From: Fibrobacter sp.
Lineage (GTDB): Bacteria; Fibrobacterota; Fibrobacteria; Fibrobacterales; Fibrobacteraceae
Direction: 5' to 3'
Length of the DNA stretch: 64,000 nucleotides
Assembly (NCBI GenBank): GCA_024398995.1
Contig: JAKSIE010000008.1
Coordinates: 1 to 64,000 of the forward strand
Numbering within the stretch: the first letter of the stretch is position 1; each line of letters starts with the position of its first letter. Positions 22,287 to 33,084 of this stretch are shown in pieces. The notes under the pieces were generated by a model. The model searched no databases and was not told the DNA's origin. It saw only the letters and a program-made list of their open reading frames with translations. The position numbers were made by a program, and so were the translations under genes.

Positions 22287-22681
22287 TAAAACTCCTAAAA
22301 GTCGACAAAAGCATGTTAGACACGATAATTGATTTGGCCCCAAGACCGATCCAAAAGTATGGACCCTGTCCGAGCCACAAGCGCTTCTTGACGGAAAGTA
22401 CCGCCCGCCCACCACCTGAGACCTGGGGACTATAAATATATAATATGATTTTTATACGGGGGAAGCCTCCCCCTCGCTCAAGCCCTTTTTAAGGTCTTTT
22501 GCTACCCCCTCTGCGGGGGAACACCCCCGCAACGCCCCCACAGTCCTCTTTGTCATCCCCGACTTGATCGGGGATCTCCCTGTTGACAAATTGTACAACA
22601 TATTTTTCAGCCAGCGCATCAAAAAAGTTTCGCCAAAATCTATATTCTAACCGTAAGGAATTTGGGAAACCAGGAGGCTCT
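22287..22681. other. intergenic region with GC-rich hairpins and a dispersed repeat
   Basis: This is about 395 bp without a gene between divergent transcripts. It holds an A/T stretch near 22430-22450, a G5/C5 hairpin near 22457-22475, C- and G-rich runs at 22503-22530 and the dispersed repeat at 22551-22580. TTGACA at 22583 could be a -35 element for the lipoprotein gene, but no well-spaced -10 is obvious. Confidence 0.5.
22551..22580. repeat. dispersed palindromic repeat
   Basis: GTCATCCCCGAC followed by TTGATCGGGGATCTCCC has an inner hairpin (CCCCGA...TCGGGG). It resembles the GTCAT-initial dispersed repeats elsewhere in the window and in many bacterial genomes. Confidence 0.6.
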
Positions 22682-27102: not shown

Positions 27103-27588
27103 CTAAAACCGTTCCACCCATTTTCCCTTGGTGCAGGCCTTGTTATAAATAGGAGCGATCATTCCGTTCTCCTTCATGGACCATATCACCAAATAGCTGG
27201 AGCACATATCCACCAGGTGGGCGCAATAGCGGGCAGTGGCATAGGAATGATGCTCGCAGTTAAAGCACGACACAATGAGCAACTTTCGAAAACGGATAGC
27301 ACGCTTGCAAAAATCCGGAAGCTTGGCAGGAAGGCTGCAACCCATGAACCACACCGCATAACCACCGCTCTTAAGAACGAAATAAAGGATTTCGCATTCC
27401 GCCTTGGAATGAAACGTCCCTACAATGCAGCGGTGTTCGCGACCCTTTTTCATGGCCCACTGTTCACGAATAATCCCAACCGCAGGGTCATCGGAACGTG
27501 ACGCAAAAACACCAATGCGCGACAGTGGTTCCGTAAGCAATTTCATATTGCCCACACATTTCATTCCAACCATTTCAAGTCCCTTCAT
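27103..27588 (-). CDS. DprA/SLOG-like Rossmann-fold protein
   Basis: The protein has 161 residues. The order of motifs fits a stand-alone DprA-like SLOG domain: RIGVFASRSDDP near the N terminus, CIVGTFHSKAECEILYF (the GxFxSxxE turn), LPDFCKRAIRFRKLLIVSCF and a C-terminal CSSYLVIWSMK strand. The family binds nucleotides or single-stranded DNA, and SLOG domains recur in conflict systems. No HTH or DprA C-terminal domain is present. AAGGAGG precedes the ATG at 27588. Upstream on the same strand lie a leader with a terminator (27689-27755) and three phased inverted repeats (27825-28050), an arrangement shared with two nuclease genes. The family call comes from motif order only. Confidence 0.5.
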   Translation of the reverse strand: MKGLEMVGMKCVGNMKLLTEPLSRIGVFASRSDDPAVGIIREQWAMKKGREHRCIVGTFHSKAECEILYFVLKSGGYAVWFMGCSLPAKLPDFCKRAIRFRKLLIVSCFNCEHHSYATARYCAHLVDMCSSYLVIWSMKENGMIAPIYNKACTKGKWVERF

Positions 27589-27688
27589 TTTTCCTCCTTG
27601 TGTAAAACCTCGCGATGTGTCGCGACGATCATTGAAAACACATTTGATTAAATGGTCGTCTGTTTCAACATCGCAAGGAAGCATGAAT

Positions 27689-27755
27689 AAAAAAAGACCG
27701 CCCTGCGGTCCTCCGACAAATTACGGATTCTAGCAGAAAGCGATCTATGAACTAT
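27689..27755 (-). promoter_or_regulatory. conserved leader with intrinsic terminator, locus A
   Basis: Read on the minus strand, a conserved block (ATAGTTCATAGATCGCTTTC, then TGCTAG) is followed by a small hairpin (TCCG...CGGA) and then GACCGC-AGG-GCGGTC with seven T, a textbook terminator. It lies between the repeat array and the SLOG-like gene, about 100 bp before its ATG. The same block occurs at 32716-32785 with a different first stem that still pairs. It could be an attenuator or a short stand-alone RNA of about 65 nt. Confidence 0.65.
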
Positions 27756-27824
27756 GTGAATGTGCAGAATAATATAGCAAATGCTACACGACGCAAACCA
27801 GAAAGCTCTTTTTTCGGGAAAAAT

Positions 27825-28050
27825 TGTCACCAAATGGCAAAAGAGCAACGTTTAGTGACACAAATATTAATTTGTCTGCAACAAATATTCAAACCAAGGC
27901 ATTTATCCTTACTCAAGAATGCCACCAATCCAAGATATATACATCTTTGGTGACAAGAAAACTGCTCTTTTCTTGCTAATCATCCGGCAAACTTGTTAAT
28001 TTATTCGAAACTTTTGTCACCAAATAAAAAAAAGCAAACGATTAGTGACA
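27825..28050. repeat. array A: three phased inverted repeats
   Basis: Three 36-bp units lie at 27825-27860, 27920-27955 and 28015-28050. Start-to-start spacing is exactly 95 bp both times, close to nine helical turns. Each unit has a left arm TGTCACCAAA (TGCCACCAAT in the middle unit), a 16-bp unrelated spacer and a right arm TTTAGTGACA (TTTGGTGACA and ATTAGTGACA in the others). The DNA between units is not repeated. It stands upstream of the minus-strand SLOG-like gene and begins 45 bp beyond the end of a FISUMP gene. Confidence 0.85.
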
Positions 28051-28095
28051 AAAAAAGTTAAAAAAGCTATTTAAAAAAGCAGTTTCTTTCAAAAA

Positions 28096-28773
28096 CTAGT
28101 TCTTAACGCATCTTACAGAGCGGGCGCTGTTTTTGTCAAAGGAATTTAATCCTGCAACAGGGCTGCTGAAATCCAAAAACAGATATTGGGCGAAGGCAGG
28201 TTCCTGGGCGTCTGTGGTAGCGCTCCAGAAATAGGCGTAACCGCCGATACCGTCGAACTTACCAACTGCGGAGTTTCCGTTGGTGGATTCCGCGGCAGAC
28301 ATGTAGCCCGCAGGCAATGCCGCGAAACCCACAGCGTCTGTACCATTACCGTTCTTGAACCAGCCACTGGTGGATTTGAGAAGCCTACCTACAGTGGTAA
28401 CGTTTGCAGCCTGCGCCATTGCTGCACCACGAACATCTGCGGCCATGACCGCCATAAGCATGGCGTCAAATTCCTCTGCAGTAGGCAAGTGCCAGCCTGC
28501 GGGACATGCCTTCTGCGCCGCATCCCAAGTATAGAGGCGACCATACTTTTTGCAATTGCGATCGTCTCCATCGGGGCAGAAACTTGTGGAATTGCCAGCA
28601 GCATCAACGGAGGCAAAATTCAAGTTCTCTGCCATCCAAACTTGTTCGCCGATTTTCACCATACTATAGGATTGGCCGTCGCGATCATCCGTAAAAGATT
28701 CCGAGCAGGCAACGATTGCTAACATCGCCATCGTCATAGACACGGCATAAATCATACCCACTAGTTTGTTCAT
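28096..28773 (-). CDS. FISUMP-domain lipoprotein
   Basis: The protein has 225 residues. A lipoprotein signal (lipobox IVAC, Cys near 23) leads into a FISUMP domain. It starts DDRDGQSYSMVKIGEQVWMAENLNF, contains KKYGRLYTWDAAQKACPAGWHLPT and ends SARSVRCVKN. FISUMP domains are expanded in Fibrobacter and also found in Bacteroidetes. They are beta-rich surface modules of unknown ligand. GGAGTGAAG lies before the ATG. It is divergent from the AAA ATPase gene. Confidence 0.85.
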   Translation of the reverse strand: MNKLVGMIYAVSMTMAMLAIVACSESFTDDRDGQSYSMVKIGEQVWMAENLNFASVDAAGNSTSFCPDGDDRNCKKYGRLYTWDAAQKACPAGWHLPTAEEFDAMLMAVMAADVRGAAMAQAANVTTVGRLLKSTSGWFKNGNGTDAVGFAALPAGYMSAAESTNGNSAVGKFDGIGGYAYFWSATTDAQEPAFAQYLFLDFSSPVAGLNSFDKNSARSVRCVKN

Positions 28774-28855
28774 TCTTCACTCCGATTTTATTATTCTACA
28801 TTCTATATATAATTTTTTAAGCGATTCCTGTATATTTGAGGAGCCCGTCTATAGT

Positions 28856-30580
28856 ATGACTTTTCTTATTATCTCATTTATCATCGTGTCCTTCATTATT
28901 GTGGGATCCGACGTTTTCGTCGCCAGATTCAAAAAAGAAAAGTTAAAGCAAATTGAAGAAGGTTCCCATAGAAAGGCTGCCGAAAAGGCCCTGAAGGACT
29001 TGATGAAGGACGTGCAGACAGAAACCAAGGTCGCATCGGAAGTCGCTATCGATCCAGTACTTGCCAAGTACATGCAAAAACTGGAGCCCACCGTTTCTGC
29101 CTTGGTCAATTTCTTCAAAGACTTTATGTTGTTTAACGGGTTGGGCGAAAAGTTACGTATGCACATTACAGAACAAAACAGCAGCACGCCTTCTAACGAA
29201 CTTGCCACTGTTTTTCTCACAGACCTGGCCTACATTTCAAAAAAGCTCGATCATCCCGTAAGCATGCAGAACAAGGAATCCTGCGGCTTTATGTCACTGA
29301 TGCTGCGCCTGCGCGCCGACACACCTTGTGAAATTGACTGGAAGCGTTTGACAGCACAGACTATGGCCAACAAAGAAATTGATCTAGACGCTATCGTAGC
29401 AAATCTTGAAAGGAATCACGAAGCCTTGAAGCGCTATGGAGACCATTTTCTTTTCCCTTCTGTCTTTGCGGATTTCTCCCCGGATGCCACAAGAAGGTAC
29501 ATGCGCCTGATGTACGATTATTCCGCAGCCCTAGCAAACATCGACGGCAAGCTTACCGTTGCTGAAATCCAGTGGCTGCAATTCATGGAAAGGTACATTG
29601 GCGGCAGCCTCTTTGCAAACGCAGCCCGAAACATCAAGTTCTCGCCCCACGAAGTCAAGTACAGGGAAGAAGGCGATTCTTGCGCCGAGATAGATGACGC
29701 AGCAGGCGCCGCCCTGGGAACCGCTGTTACCGCAAAAATTTCTGGACTCGGCGACAGCGCCAAACTTTCTGCAGAGCAGTGCGGCGAAGAGGCGGAAAAA
29801 CAGTTGAATGCATTGGTGGGCCTCGCTTCCGTCAAGCAAGAAGTCATCACCTTCCGCAACTTCCTGAAGATCCAGAATGAACGTCGCAAGAAGGGTTTGT
29901 CCGTTCCGCCCACATCCTACCATCTGGTTTTCTCCGGAAATCCTGGCACCGGCAAGACCACCATCGCCCGCATCATGGCGCAGATTCTCAAGTCATTGGG
30001 AGTGATTTCCAGCGGGCATCTGGTGGAAGCTTCCCGCAGCGACCTGGTGGCAGGCTACATGGGGCAAACCGCCATCAAGACAAACAAGGTCATCGACAGC
30101 GCATTGAATGGAGTGCTGTTCATCGACGAAGCCTACACCCTTTCTCGCAGCTCCGAAAACGATTTCGGGCAGGAAGCCATCGATACCCTGCTGAAGCGCA
30201 TGGAAGATGACCGCGATCGCCTGGTGGTGATTATCGCAGGCTACACCGACGAAATCAAGAATTTTGTGAATTCCAATCCGGGCCTTGCATCTCGTTTCAA
30301 TAGGTACATTGAATTTCCGGATTACACCGAAAGCGAGCTGGAAGAAATTTTTGAATTGCTAGTGGACAAGTACGATTACGTTTTGAGCGACTCTGCACGA
30401 ACTGCCCTGAAGCAGACCATCGCCAAGGCCGTCCGTGAAAAGGATTCCCATTTCGGTAACGGTCGTTTTGTCCGCAACCTCTTTGAAAAGACCATCGAAC
30501 GCCAGGCCAATCGTTTGGCAAAGGTGGAAAACCTTGGCGCCGTGAACATCAGCCAAATCGAAGGTGCTGATTTTGTCTGA
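28856..30580 (+). CDS. CbxX/CfxQ-type AAA ATPase with membrane anchor
   Basis: The protein has 574 residues. An N-terminal membrane segment (about 1-20, TFLIISFIIVSFIIVGSDVF) precedes a helical middle region (about 30-330). A CbxX/CfxQ-class AAA domain follows (about 340-570). Walker A is FSGNPGTGKTTIAR, Walker B is GVLFIDEAYTL, and the arginine-bearing SRFNRYIEFPDY comes next. Relatives remodel Rubisco or sit in secretion and mobile clusters; here it is probably a general remodelling ATPase. GAGGAG is 12 bases before the ATG at 28856. The stop overlaps the PLD gene, so the two form an operon. Confidence 0.8.
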   Translation: MTFLIISFIIVSFIIVGSDVFVARFKKEKLKQIEEGSHRKAAEKALKDLMKDVQTETKVASEVAIDPVLAKYMQKLEPTVSALVNFFKDFMLFNGLGEKLRMHITEQNSSTPSNELATVFLTDLAYISKKLDHPVSMQNKESCGFMSLMLRLRADTPCEIDWKRLTAQTMANKEIDLDAIVANLERNHEALKRYGDHFLFPSVFADFSPDATRRYMRLMYDYSAALANIDGKLTVAEIQWLQFMERYIGGSLFANAARNIKFSPHEVKYREEGDSCAEIDDAAGAALGTAVTAKISGLGDSAKLSAEQCGEEAEKQLNALVGLASVKQEVITFRNFLKIQNERRKKGLSVPPTSYHLVFSGNPGTGKTTIARIMAQILKSLGVISSGHLVEASRSDLVAGYMGQTAIKTNKVIDSALNGVLFIDEAYTLSRSSENDFGQEAIDTLLKRMEDDRDRLVVIIAGYTDEIKNFVNSNPGLASRFNRYIEFPDYTESELEEIFELLVDKYDYVLSDSARTALKQTIAKAVREKDSHFGNGRFVRNLFEKTIERQANRLAKVENLGAVNISQIEGADFV

Positions 30581-31097
30581 AATTTTTACCAAGTACATCG
30601 CCAACGAAGAGCATTACAGCGAAGTCATCGAGCGCATCGCAAAAGTTCGCGACACCCTGTGGATCGGTACCGCCGACATCAAGGACTTGTATGTAAAGCA
30701 GAACGGCGAGGCCATTCCCCTGCTGGGGCAAATTGCGGGCCTGCTGAAAAAAGGCGTAGGCGTGCGCCTGGTTCACGCCAAGGAACCGGGCCCAAACTTC
30801 CGCGAAGATTTCGACCGGTTTCCGATTTTGGCCACAGACCTGGAACGAGTACTTTGCCCCCGCGTACACTTCAAGATGGTAATTTTCGACCTGGAGGTGG
30901 CCTACATCGGATCTGCCAACTTGACAGGCGCCGGCATCGGCATGAAAAGCGCCCTAAAGCGTAATTTTGAAGCAGGCATTCTCACCAACGACCCGCAAAT
31001 CGTCGAAGCCGCCATCAACCAGTTTGACACCCTATGGATGGGCGCCCACTGCAAAAACTGCGGAAGGCAGGAATATTGCGGGGATAGGATTAAGTAG
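30564..31097 (+). CDS. PLD-type phosphodiesterase with one HKD motif
   Basis: The protein has 177 residues. A single HKD motif reads HFKMVIFD (about residue 102), followed by GSANLTGAG. One-motif members act as homodimers, as in Nuc and some nucleases. A C-terminal cysteine group (HCKNCGRQEYC) could bind zinc. The start is GTG at 30564 inside the AAA gene, or TTG at 30573; either way the genes overlap and are coupled. It could cut phosphodiesters of DNA, RNA or lipid. Pairing with an AAA ATPase in an accessory island favours a nucleic-acid role, but this is inference. Confidence 0.75.
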   Translation: MLILSEIFTKYIANEEHYSEVIERIAKVRDTLWIGTADIKDLYVKQNGEAIPLLGQIAGLLKKGVGVRLVHAKEPGPNFREDFDRFPILATDLERVLCPRVHFKMVIFDLEVAYIGSANLTGAGIGMKSALKRNFEAGILTNDPQIVEAAINQFDTLWMGAHCKNCGRQEYCGDRIK

Positions 31098-31099
31098 GG

Positions 31100-31717
31100 C
31101 TAGGGATTTTTGACACAGCGAACCGAGAAGCCGAAATTCTTATTGTCGTAGTACACGAGGGCGCCCTCGTAGCCGTAGCGCAAACCCAGGTAGTACGCGT
31201 TGTTACTATCGTACACCGTAGAAGACCAGAAGGTCGCGCCGTCGCCCTCGTAGACGAAGCCGCCGCCGATGCCGCTGAGGTACTCGCCAGCGGGCAACGC
31301 CCCAAAGCCGAGGCCGTCAGTCCCATTGCCTCTCTTGCCGTCATTATCTTTCCAGCCAGTAGTGGACTTCAGCACGGTTCCTGCCTTGTCGATATCACCA
31401 GCCTTTTGACCGGCAAGTTTTTCTAATTCCTCAAATTCTTCCTTGCTGGGCAGGTGCCAGCCATCCGGGCAAGCGGTAACGGCTTCTCTCCAAACATAAA
31501 GGCGGCCATACTTGTCGCAGTTTTCGGGTTTGTTATCGTAACACTTGCTTTCATCGGTCTGATAATTCAGATTCTCCGCCATCCATTCCTGGTTGCCAAT
31601 CTTTACAGTCTTGTAGGTCTTGCCATCGCGGTGATCCTTCATTGTCCCGGCATAACTTGCCGATGCCGCTAGAAACACAATCAGAACAGCACCCATCTTC
31701 GCAATAAAATTCTTCAT
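31100..31717 (-). CDS. exported FISUMP-domain protein
   Basis: The protein has 205 residues. A signal peptide (about 1-23, ending ASASYAG) is followed by a FISUMP domain: DHRDGKTYKTVKIGNQEWMA, KYGRLYVWREAVTACPDGWHLP and the end FGFSVRCVKNP. It is a paralogue of 28096-28773, but without a lipobox. It is convergent with the PLD gene, with 2 bp between stops. Confidence 0.85.
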   Translation of the reverse strand: MKNFIAKMGAVLIVFLAASASYAGTMKDHRDGKTYKTVKIGNQEWMAENLNYQTDESKCYDNKPENCDKYGRLYVWREAVTACPDGWHLPSKEEFEELEKLAGQKAGDIDKAGTVLKSTTGWKDNDGKRGNGTDGLGFGALPAGEYLSGIGGGFVYEGDGATFWSSTVYDSNNAYYLGLRYGYEGALVYYDNKNFGFSVRCVKNP

Positions 31718-31839
31718 AACATTTTCTTTGTTTTGTACAAGGTTATAATAGAAATTTTGTCTAAAATTCCATTATCGTTTCATAATTTCGGCAAAAAAAA
31801 TCATGCTGACTACTTTCAACATGGATTGATCCAAATACA

Positions 31840-32694
31840 TTACAGCAAATACTTCCTCGCCAGCGCCTCCACGGTGGCGGGGTTCAGCGGGCGTTCCTGT
31901 GTTTCCATTGTAAAGATGAGGGATTCGCCAGGGAAGATTCCGTTGGCGGTGTAGGTCTCGAATTTTCCAAGAGTTTCTGCGATGTATTCGGGATCGTCCA
32001 TTCGCCCGAAATGCTCCCAGATGAATTCGCGACGGGTGCGAATGTTGAGGCAGGTGAAATCGGGATGGAATGTTACGGTGCGGCGGGAGCTGTCTCGACC
32101 GCGGCTGTTCCTGCGGACTTTCAGCTGGTGGGGAAATTCATAGCGGTAGGGAATTTTCAGGCGATCAAGGGTATCCGCGATGATGACCTCTGACTTGGAG
32201 CGCACCCGCTCCCCGCGGGAGGTTTCCAGCAGAGGCGCGTCGACAGCCATCCCCTTCCCGCTATACTTTACCGTAAGCCACTGCTCCGCAAATTCCTCGT
32301 CAGGAAGACGCACTGGCTGCAAGAATCGCTGACGTTCCGGGGCAAGATTGCTGTAAACCGCATTGAGACACTCCGGTTGGTATTCCTTAAGAAACTTGTC
32401 AATTACGAAAAGCTCTCGCTGAAGTTCCTTGAGGGCGCATTTATCATAATCTTTCTGCGCCAAAGCCTTGATGGTCGACACATCTGACTGAGGAATATAA
32501 TCGCCAACAATATCGGCAGGGCTCTTTACATGAAAGTAATGTACCGAATTTTTACGGCGGGCCATACGGAGGCGCCCTTCTATTGATTTTCTCAAACGCT
32601 TATCAATTGTGGTAATTGCGGCAAGTAACTCTTCTGCTTTTGCCTGAACAACAGCCACAAGCTTATCCGGCGAGATCAATTCTTTAAGTTGCAT
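31840..32694 (-). CDS. PD-(D/E)XK-like nuclease, accessory
   Basis: The protein has 284 residues. The N-terminal half is helical with a shared block (YFHVKSPADIVGDYIPQ, ALAQKDYDKCALKELQ). The C-terminal half fits a PD-(D/E)XK core: GERVRSKSEVIIADTL (helix-borne Glu), PYRYEFP, FHPDFTCLN (the PD aspartate) and EFIWEHFGRMDDPEY. A paralogue with the same blocks lies at 45732-46598. AAGGAG precedes the ATG at 32694. Upstream are the leader at 32716-32785 and array B. The catalytic lysine is not where the simplest pattern puts it (WEH in place of ExK), so activity needs testing. Similar stand-alone proteins are, to my memory, common in gut Firmicutes, so transfer is possible. Confidence 0.6.
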   Translation of the reverse strand: MQLKELISPDKLVAVVQAKAEELLAAITTIDKRLRKSIEGRLRMARRKNSVHYFHVKSPADIVGDYIPQSDVSTIKALAQKDYDKCALKELQRELFVIDKFLKEYQPECLNAVYSNLAPERQRFLQPVRLPDEEFAEQWLTVKYSGKGMAVDAPLLETSRGERVRSKSEVIIADTLDRLKIPYRYEFPHQLKVRRNSRGRDSSRRTVTFHPDFTCLNIRTRREFIWEHFGRMDDPEYIAETLGKFETYTANGIFPGESLIFTMETQERPLNPATVEALARKYLL

Positions 32695-32715
32695 CAGCAC
32701 TCCTTTTTAGGACAT

Positions 32716-32785
32716 AAAAAAAGACCGCCTCTGCGGTCCGCTGGAAAATTCCAGTTTCTGGCAGGAAAGCGATCTATTAACTATG
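32716..32785 (-). promoter_or_regulatory. conserved leader with intrinsic terminator, locus B
   Basis: Read on the minus strand it has CATAGTTAATAGATCGCTTT, then CCTGCCAG, a hairpin (CTGGAATTTTCCAG) and the terminator GACCGC-AGAG-GCGGTC with seven T, ending 22 bp before the nuclease ATG. It matches locus A base for base across the conserved block. The first hairpin differs in sequence but keeps pairing (CTGG/CCAG against TCCG/CGGA), which suggests an RNA structure under selection. It may limit expression or yield a short RNA. Confidence 0.7.
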
Positions 32786-32854
32786 CCCTAAATATACAAA
32801 TAGTTGGTGGTTTAGCCAATTTTGTTGCCATGCAAAAGGACTTTTTGTCAAAAT

Positions 32855-33084
32855 GGGTTACTAAATGGGTAATATAAAAGCATCTAGTAACCCGATTATT
32901 ACTTTATACGCAAACAAAGGGTTAAAAAAAGGAACGTCTTCTTAATTACCCATATCCCAAAGGTTACTAAAACAGGGATTTTCGGCTAGTTAGTAACCTA
33001 ATTTCTAACTTAACCATGGTTTTGTAATTAGTTTGTTTGTAAAATAGGTTACTAAAAAGATGTTTTTCGGCCGTTTAGTAACCT
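32855..33084. repeat. array B: three phased inverted repeats
   Basis: Three 39-bp units lie at 32855-32893, 32961-32999 and 33046-33084. Spacing is 106 then 85 bp, about ten and eight helical turns. Each unit has an 11-bp left arm (GGGTTACTAAA or AGGTTACTAAA), a 17-bp unrelated spacer and the right arm TTTAGTAACCT (TCTAGTAACCC and GTTAGTAACCT in the others). Pairing is perfect over 9, 10 and 11 bp. It lies upstream of the nuclease gene on the minus strand, in an A/T-rich gap after aspartokinase. Confidence 0.88.

Follow-up and report, generated by a model that had tools for sequence, protein, structure and literature searches.

A shared leader ending in a terminator precedes unrelated, exchangeable genes in Fibrobacter: a candidate generic attenuator

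Why should two unrelated genes carry the same short leader, and what could a transcription terminator do in front of a gene rather than behind it? The question is raised by two loci, A and B, on the minus strand of a Fibrobacter sp. contig (JAKSIE010000008.1 of assembly GCA_024398995.1), of which positions 1 to 64,000 were analysed; this whole 64-kb stretch is called the window below. The answer that we favour, with a probability of about 0.72, is that the leaders of A and B are cis-acting, promoter-proximal intrinsic attenuators that act as a generic brake on exchangeable accessory genes.

The leader pair and its terminator hairpin

On the minus strand, ATAGATCGCTTT occurs at exactly two sites in the whole window, 27737-27748 and 32766-32777, and there is no third site when one mismatch is allowed. 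An alignment of the leaders that contain these sites spans 72 columns and extends from CATAGTTnATAGATCGCTTT to GCGGTCTTTTTTTAT, the aligned stretch beginning with CATAGTTnATAGATCGC and running through the T run and the next AT. The local score of this alignment is 85, compared with a mean of 14.8 and a maximum of 24 among 1000 dinucleotide-preserving shuffles of the pair. The original prediction, made from the letters of this stretch, that A and B share a leader and a terminator is confirmed: the two loci have in common a leader of about 70 nucleotides (nt) with a terminator at its end, although the genes that follow are unrelated.

The leader RNA of locus A (27689-27764; minus strand, like all leader and gene features below), as delineated from the sequence and a covariance-model match, is about 70-76 nt long, with a predicted start about 7 nt past a -10-like box, TATATT (27771-27776), and an end in a tract of seven T (27689-27695). 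This box was not recovered by a strict sigma-70 scan; it was recognized in the sequence and in relatives, which have the identical box at a fixed distance. The leader RNA of locus B (32716-32784), delineated by the same evidence and about 67-69 nt long, is preceded by a -10 box TATATT (32791-32796), with TTGGCT 17 bp upstream (32814-32819), and ends in its own seven T (32716-32722). For all leaders, the promoter positions are those predicted from sequence.

The original prediction divided the leader into two hairpins, namely, a first stem that changes in sequence and keeps its pairing (TCCG/CGGA in A, CTGG/CCAG in B) and a separate terminator, GACCGC..GCGGTC, followed by seven T, with a near-identical block as the flank. 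All these stems, the possible pairing and the seven T are present, and the block is indeed conserved, but it is no mere flank. In the folding of both leaders, its GATCGC (27740-27745 in A, 32769-32774 in B) is the 5' arm that pairs with GCGGTC (27696-27701 and 32723-32728, respectively), and CTGC (27733-27736 and 32761-32764) pairs with GCAG (27703-27706 and 32731-32734), forming a middle helix. The result is a single long hairpin, denoted P2, that ends at the T run, has the first stem as its tip (27712-27727 in A, 32741-32754 in B) and excludes the GACCGC hairpin. The outer arms are seen in relatives as well, with covariation for the 3' arm of A. The fold with two separate hairpins, in which GATCGC is free, is less stable than P2 by 3.9-9.1 kcal/mol in all 21 subgroup relatives, and its 5' arm, GACYGC, is lacking in 5 of the 21, so that it is probably not the main fold. 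GACCGC (27705-27710 in A, 32733-32738 in B) could be the 5' arm of an alternative short terminator, which the folding comparison makes a possible competitor of GATCGC for the GCGGTC 3' arm.

The genes behind the two leaders are unrelated, as predicted. Gene A (27103-27588) encodes a stand-alone SLOG/DprA-like protein of 161 amino acids that is found in 39 of 80 genomes; its AlphaFold2 model has a predicted local distance difference test score (pLDDT) of 90, and a Foldseek search against the PDB gives DprA as the best match (E = 5.6e-9), along with ShosA and the SLOG domain of ThsA. Gene B (31840-32694; 284 amino acids), with the Shine-Dalgarno (SD) sequence AAGGAG at 32699-32704, belongs to a different family: its C-terminus matches the PADLOC profile PDC-S68 (E = 8.5e-22), and the conserved positions RSKSE..D..WEH suggest a C-terminal PD-(D/E)XK nuclease. 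The fold search for gene B yields weak matches alone, the best being a restriction enzyme. The terminator lies ahead of the ATG in both cases, but at locus A not directly: 101 nt separate the gene's own ATG (27588) from the T run. Another ATG at this locus, at 27684, is merely an upstream in-frame codon, absent in G024.

A leader family in Fibrobacter

The A/B element is a member of a Fibrobacter-wide leader family that is absent from Rfam. The layout of the family comprises a -10 box, 8 nt, a 5' hairpin denoted P1, the linker TATTAnnAGATCG, the covarying P2, a U run, an SD sequence and the gene; a canonical leader reads TATATT, 8 nt, P1 of the form CACC-NNNAAN-GGTG, the linker nTATTA, P2 and the T run. 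The spacing between the -10 box and P1 is 8 nt in 53 of the 60 canonical copies. Further versions of P1 are GCCGG-GNAA-CCGGC, GCCGGTC..GGCCGGC, GCCAGAT..ATCTGGC and GCTGCGG..CCGTGGC, and the inner sequences of P2 vary freely. The P1 hairpin is missing in both window copies, which seem to have lost it; the subgroup to which they belong has a conserved single-stranded 5' block, AUAGUUnAUAG. Homologs of gene A, down to about 40% identity, keep the upstream layout, with different stem sequences.

In the 42 distinct canonical leaders, 94.5% of the P2 pair cells hold standard pairs, compared with 35-61% when the pairing is slid, and both sides have changed in 39 cells, compared with 14.0 +/- 3.2 after shuffling, where none of 500 shuffles reaches 39. 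The compensations are A-U/G-C (26-58), G-C/A-U (31-53), C-G/U-A (32-52) and A-U/C-G/U-A (25-59). The shuffle control keeps relatedness, so that the shuffle count carries less weight than the slid control and than subtypes that are independent. P1 never shows a double change in the same 42 leaders; its support therefore comes from the other subtypes, whose differing P1 versions lie outside the aligned covariation counts. The compensation seen in P2 indicates that selection acts on an RNA that forms a hairpin followed by a U run.

The genus set consists of draft genomes of about 80 species. A model built from nine copies has matches in 13 of 80 Fibrobacter genomes. The covariance model, built from the 42 canonical leaders, all of them from other genomes and none from that of the window, finds 66 matches in the genus at E <= 3.2e-8, many genomes being without strong copies. 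These 66 strong members, with the 39 doubly compensated cells, supply the further covarying examples on which the original prediction of a structured RNA hinged. When this model is run over the window, leader A ranks first (27761-27689, E = 5e-4) and leader B second (32789-32716, E = 0.017); the third match (E = 0.024) is an ordinary terminator, and therefore leader B is not significant on its own. Among the pattern searches, TAGATCGC..GCGRTY-T5 occurs at 25 places in 168 genomes (one of these, G066, chance-like) and nowhere in the reversed control, WAGATCG..CGRTC-T at 73 places compared with 5 in the control (on inspection, a small number of the 73 are chance matches), and the -10/P1/linker pattern at 53 compared with 0, every match falling within Fibrobacter.

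Promoter-proximal terminators as a general trait of Fibrobacter genes were considered and rejected: a -10 box, a terminator and a gene start follow one another in 8 of 278 open reading frames (about 356 kb), and 7 of these 8 cases are the family element, the stretches having been picked around the element, so that these counts give no estimate of density. Against the 4227 Rfam models, at the gathering thresholds and at E <= 1, the window holds RF02983 only, which lies elsewhere than the leaders, and seven relatives of the leader have no match at E <= 1. Two patterns have 0 matches in the IMG/VR viral contigs, and no leader copy was found on plasmids. A loose pattern retrieves about 80 stretches from other phyla in GTDB contigs, none of them a family member; on reading, they look like chance or coding sequence. 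Weak matches within the locus set (L304-L310, L411, L414, L416, L418, L420) were discarded because they have no -10 box and linker or are ordinary gene-end terminators. At four other loci (L321 (235-), L329, L409, L412), a deletion joins P1-linker-GGATCGC to an ORF6N-like coding sequence (GGATCGCGGATATATACC); in these fused copies, the terminator and the gene start have been removed.

Gene exchange and the likely role of the leader

The genes downstream of family leaders represent about ten unrelated, conflict-like (defence-, toxin- or phage-like) families. The Pfam matches include DUF1016, ORF6N, RelB, RhuM, DUF4143/AAA_14, DUF6169, SLFN_AlbA_2 and a HicB-like antitoxin, as well as PDDEXK_2 and the YhgA-like Transposase_31 of the Rpn type. 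The leader is not a constant companion of the ORF6N class: when the 30 best ORF6N loci were scanned for P2, a match was obtained at L362 alone; at least L358, L350 and L352 have a leader that is incomplete or falls beyond the scanned stretch, and the rest have different leaders or none. Upstream of ORF6N at L346, L347, L353 and L355, the TATATT box is separated from the SD sequence by other leader types with a long terminator hairpin, unrelated in sequence to the A/B family, which suggests several attenuator families before this class.

The relationship between leader and gene is most apparent where the gene has been replaced. At locus B, the identity between the window and G024 is 97% as far as the final T of the leader (the T tract at 32716-32722 is the exchange junction), the genes are wholly different (the putative B nuclease and YhgA/Rpn, respectively), and homology resumes 20 bp past the stop codon. 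Where the exchanged gene of this locus ends, its 3' border is marked by a conserved gene-end terminator, ATGTTGAAAGTAGTCAGCATG with a T run, found in the window at 31784-31812 and also at L014, L031, L032 and L185. Altogether, six locus pairs, compared without a species tree, have different genes and upstream homology that stops 0-37 nt past the T run, the other swaps being ORF6N/Rpn, ORF6N/DUF1016, AlbA_2/RhuM, RelB/Rpn and ORF6N/AAA. Between G000 and G040, homology is confined to the leader, of 70 bp, and to the flank downstream. Conversely, the gene B orthologs of G009 and G025 share the operator array and have a promoter but lack the leader. Because genes are swapped behind it and gene B orthologs occur without it, the leader is a module separate from the gene, a stronger outcome than the initial claim that it is not merely inherited with the reading frame.

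Such borders, and the G000/G040 pair in particular, would also suit an integron-like DNA recombination site, where gene cassettes dock behind a promoter that is already in place. We consider this reading, for which the exchange junctions were examined, improbable, given that the compensatory changes in P2 point to a hairpin RNA with a U run and that ordinary homologous recombination at the shared flanks can explain the exchange.

The family, its structure and covariation, its position, its gene set and the swaps are read in the sequence; that termination takes place in vivo, that there is read-through and that either is regulated are inferences. RNA polymerase would start at the -10 box, which precedes the conserved block by a few nucleotides; in the leader of about 70 nt, GAUCGC and GCGGUC would pair to form the long terminator hairpin followed by U7, preceded in canonical members by P1 and the UAUUA linker. 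Most transcripts would end at the U7 tract of the leader, and only those that read through would extend to the accessory gene and its ribosome site. A terminator hairpin and a U run do lie between the promoter and the SD sequence of the gene, as in an attenuator, and the best reading is that the accessory genes are kept low or silent in this manner. Because one leader serves about ten unrelated families and outlasts gene exchange, staying in place as the genes change, it would most likely be a generic cis brake on incoming genes that are costly. A general factor or condition, and not the product of each gene, would release this brake.

Apart from an attenuator, the original prediction allowed for a short stand-alone RNA, that is, a small RNA of about 70 nt acting in trans, next to whose gene other genes were inserted. 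The element has its own promoter and terminator, the window subgroup has the conserved single-stranded AUAGUUnAUAG block, and different genes have repeatedly been inserted behind the leader, all of which would suit a small RNA. However, an SD sequence and start codon are located within 35 nt past the U run in 58 of the 60 canonical copies (median 16 nt), leaving no space for a second promoter; the copies are scattered before many genes instead of residing in one conserved locus, and many genomes lack strong copies. A trans-acting RNA is thus quite unlikely, and of the two original alternatives, the attenuator is favoured.

The strongest rival is a variant of the attenuator explanation and compatible with it: a fixed attenuator or insulator that has no switch and whose constant low read-through makes new genes tolerable. 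We put it somewhat below an even chance. It is favoured by the dispensability of P1, as illustrated by the window copies, and by the freedom of the inner P2 sequences, whereas the sequence and spacing of canonical P1 and of the TATTA linker are conserved beyond the need of a plain terminator. A P1-based antiterminator, which the P1 3' arm and AUCGC could form in canonical leaders, is compatible with 97.6% of the canonical cells, in columns that give no covariation in its support. Several points weigh against the generic brake as proposed above. No antiterminator is conserved in all subtypes, the window copies and other subtypes being unable to form the P1/AUCGC helix, which equally speaks for a fixed device; the 101-nt gap between T run and gene at locus A leaves a possible intervening promoter; and the observations are explained just as well by a fixed device that holds expression low without regulation.

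A rather unlikely extension of the generic brake is that the leader is a shared safety catch, in which some shared signal, such as a change in RNA polymerase or antitermination in phage infection, would open P2 and turn on whichever gene sits behind the leader. If so, a newly acquired gene would come under defence control at once. How toxin and defence genes that enter a bacterium are kept quiet while remaining available is an open question, to which a compact RNA module placed before about ten families of conflict genes and kept through swaps would offer a direct, testable answer in one genus. The leader alone could also be a handle to find new defence genes in Fibrobacter.

Upstream arrays and known systems

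Upstream of both promoters, the dyad scan reveals operator-like arrays. The array at A (27826-28049) consists of three dyads GTCAC(C/T)AA..TT(A/G)GTGAC in 95-bp steps (27826, about 27921, where it is degenerate, and 28016), and that at B (32857-33082) of three dyads GTTACTAA..TTAGTAAC at distances of 106 and 85 bp. Arrays of two or three such 33-35-bp dyads, GTnAC(C/T)A..TRGTnAC, are also present at L184, L185, L186, L189, L190 and L191. The third bases are complementary (GTCAC at A, GTTAC at B), and spacings of 85, 95 or 106 bp correspond to whole helical turns. There are 20 arrays in 356 kb, compared with 0.2 per shuffled 64-kb window, and most of them are upstream of A- or B-type genes. Such an array looks like a phased operator for a regulator. 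A different, partly palindromic sequence, CAACAGTTGTTTGCAAAATG, recurs 60-130 bp upstream of several Rpn, toxin-antitoxin (TA) and ToxIN leaders (L038, L039, L044, L047, L049, L055, L413).

Among the known RNA elements, Fibrobacter-1 RNA (RF02983) is another Fibrobacter motif, located in the same window (22338-22438, minus strand, 101 bits); this 102-nt RNA is unrelated to the leaders in sequence and structure. Together with the Fib_succ_major proteins encoded in the window, it points to Fibrobacter as the host.

The type III toxin-antitoxin systems (ToxIN, AbiQ, TenpIN, CptIN) consist of a single promoter, a short structured RNA, a Rho-independent terminator and a toxin-like gene (PMC5086642). 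The A/B leaders share this order of parts, so that the leader RNA could be an antitoxin neutralising the downstream protein, and the terminator of true ToxIN loci in the genus is a weak match to the model (L410, L413, L415; E about 0.007). We regard this as highly improbable: a single RNA could not plausibly be specific for about ten proteins that are unrelated to one another, and the RelB and HicB genes are themselves antitoxins. The transcribed leaders of A and B have no tandem repeats upstream of the terminator, such as those present in L413, and no endoribonuclease of the ToxN/TenpN/CptN fold, nor any Pfam ToxN match, was found behind them; because both the repeats and the toxin are lacking, A and B are not assigned to type III. 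The genuine ToxIN at L413 (185-800; also L410 and L415), whose terminator resembles that of the family, encodes a ToxN (PF13958, E = 8.8e-23) and has two 28-nt repeats, GGTGCGTGGTCCTGCCTTAGTGGACAGT, about 35 nt apart.

The put/nut-type leaders of phages are short 5' RNA hairpins that decide the passage of polymerase through terminators. The Fibrobacter leader resembles them in having short 5' hairpins and differs in that its second hairpin is the terminator itself. In the trp and pyr operons, and with protein-dependent attenuators, control is exerted by intrinsic terminators in 5' leaders. These share with the Fibrobacter leader a promoter-proximal GC hairpin and a U run before the SD sequence of the regulated gene, whereas the Fibrobacter leader has no visible leader peptide, conserved antiterminator or common pathway, and a single leader family precedes accessory genes of many unrelated kinds and persists when these are replaced. 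The leader attenuator is the nearest class, and the unusual part is a leader family common to many unrelated, exchangeable conflict genes.

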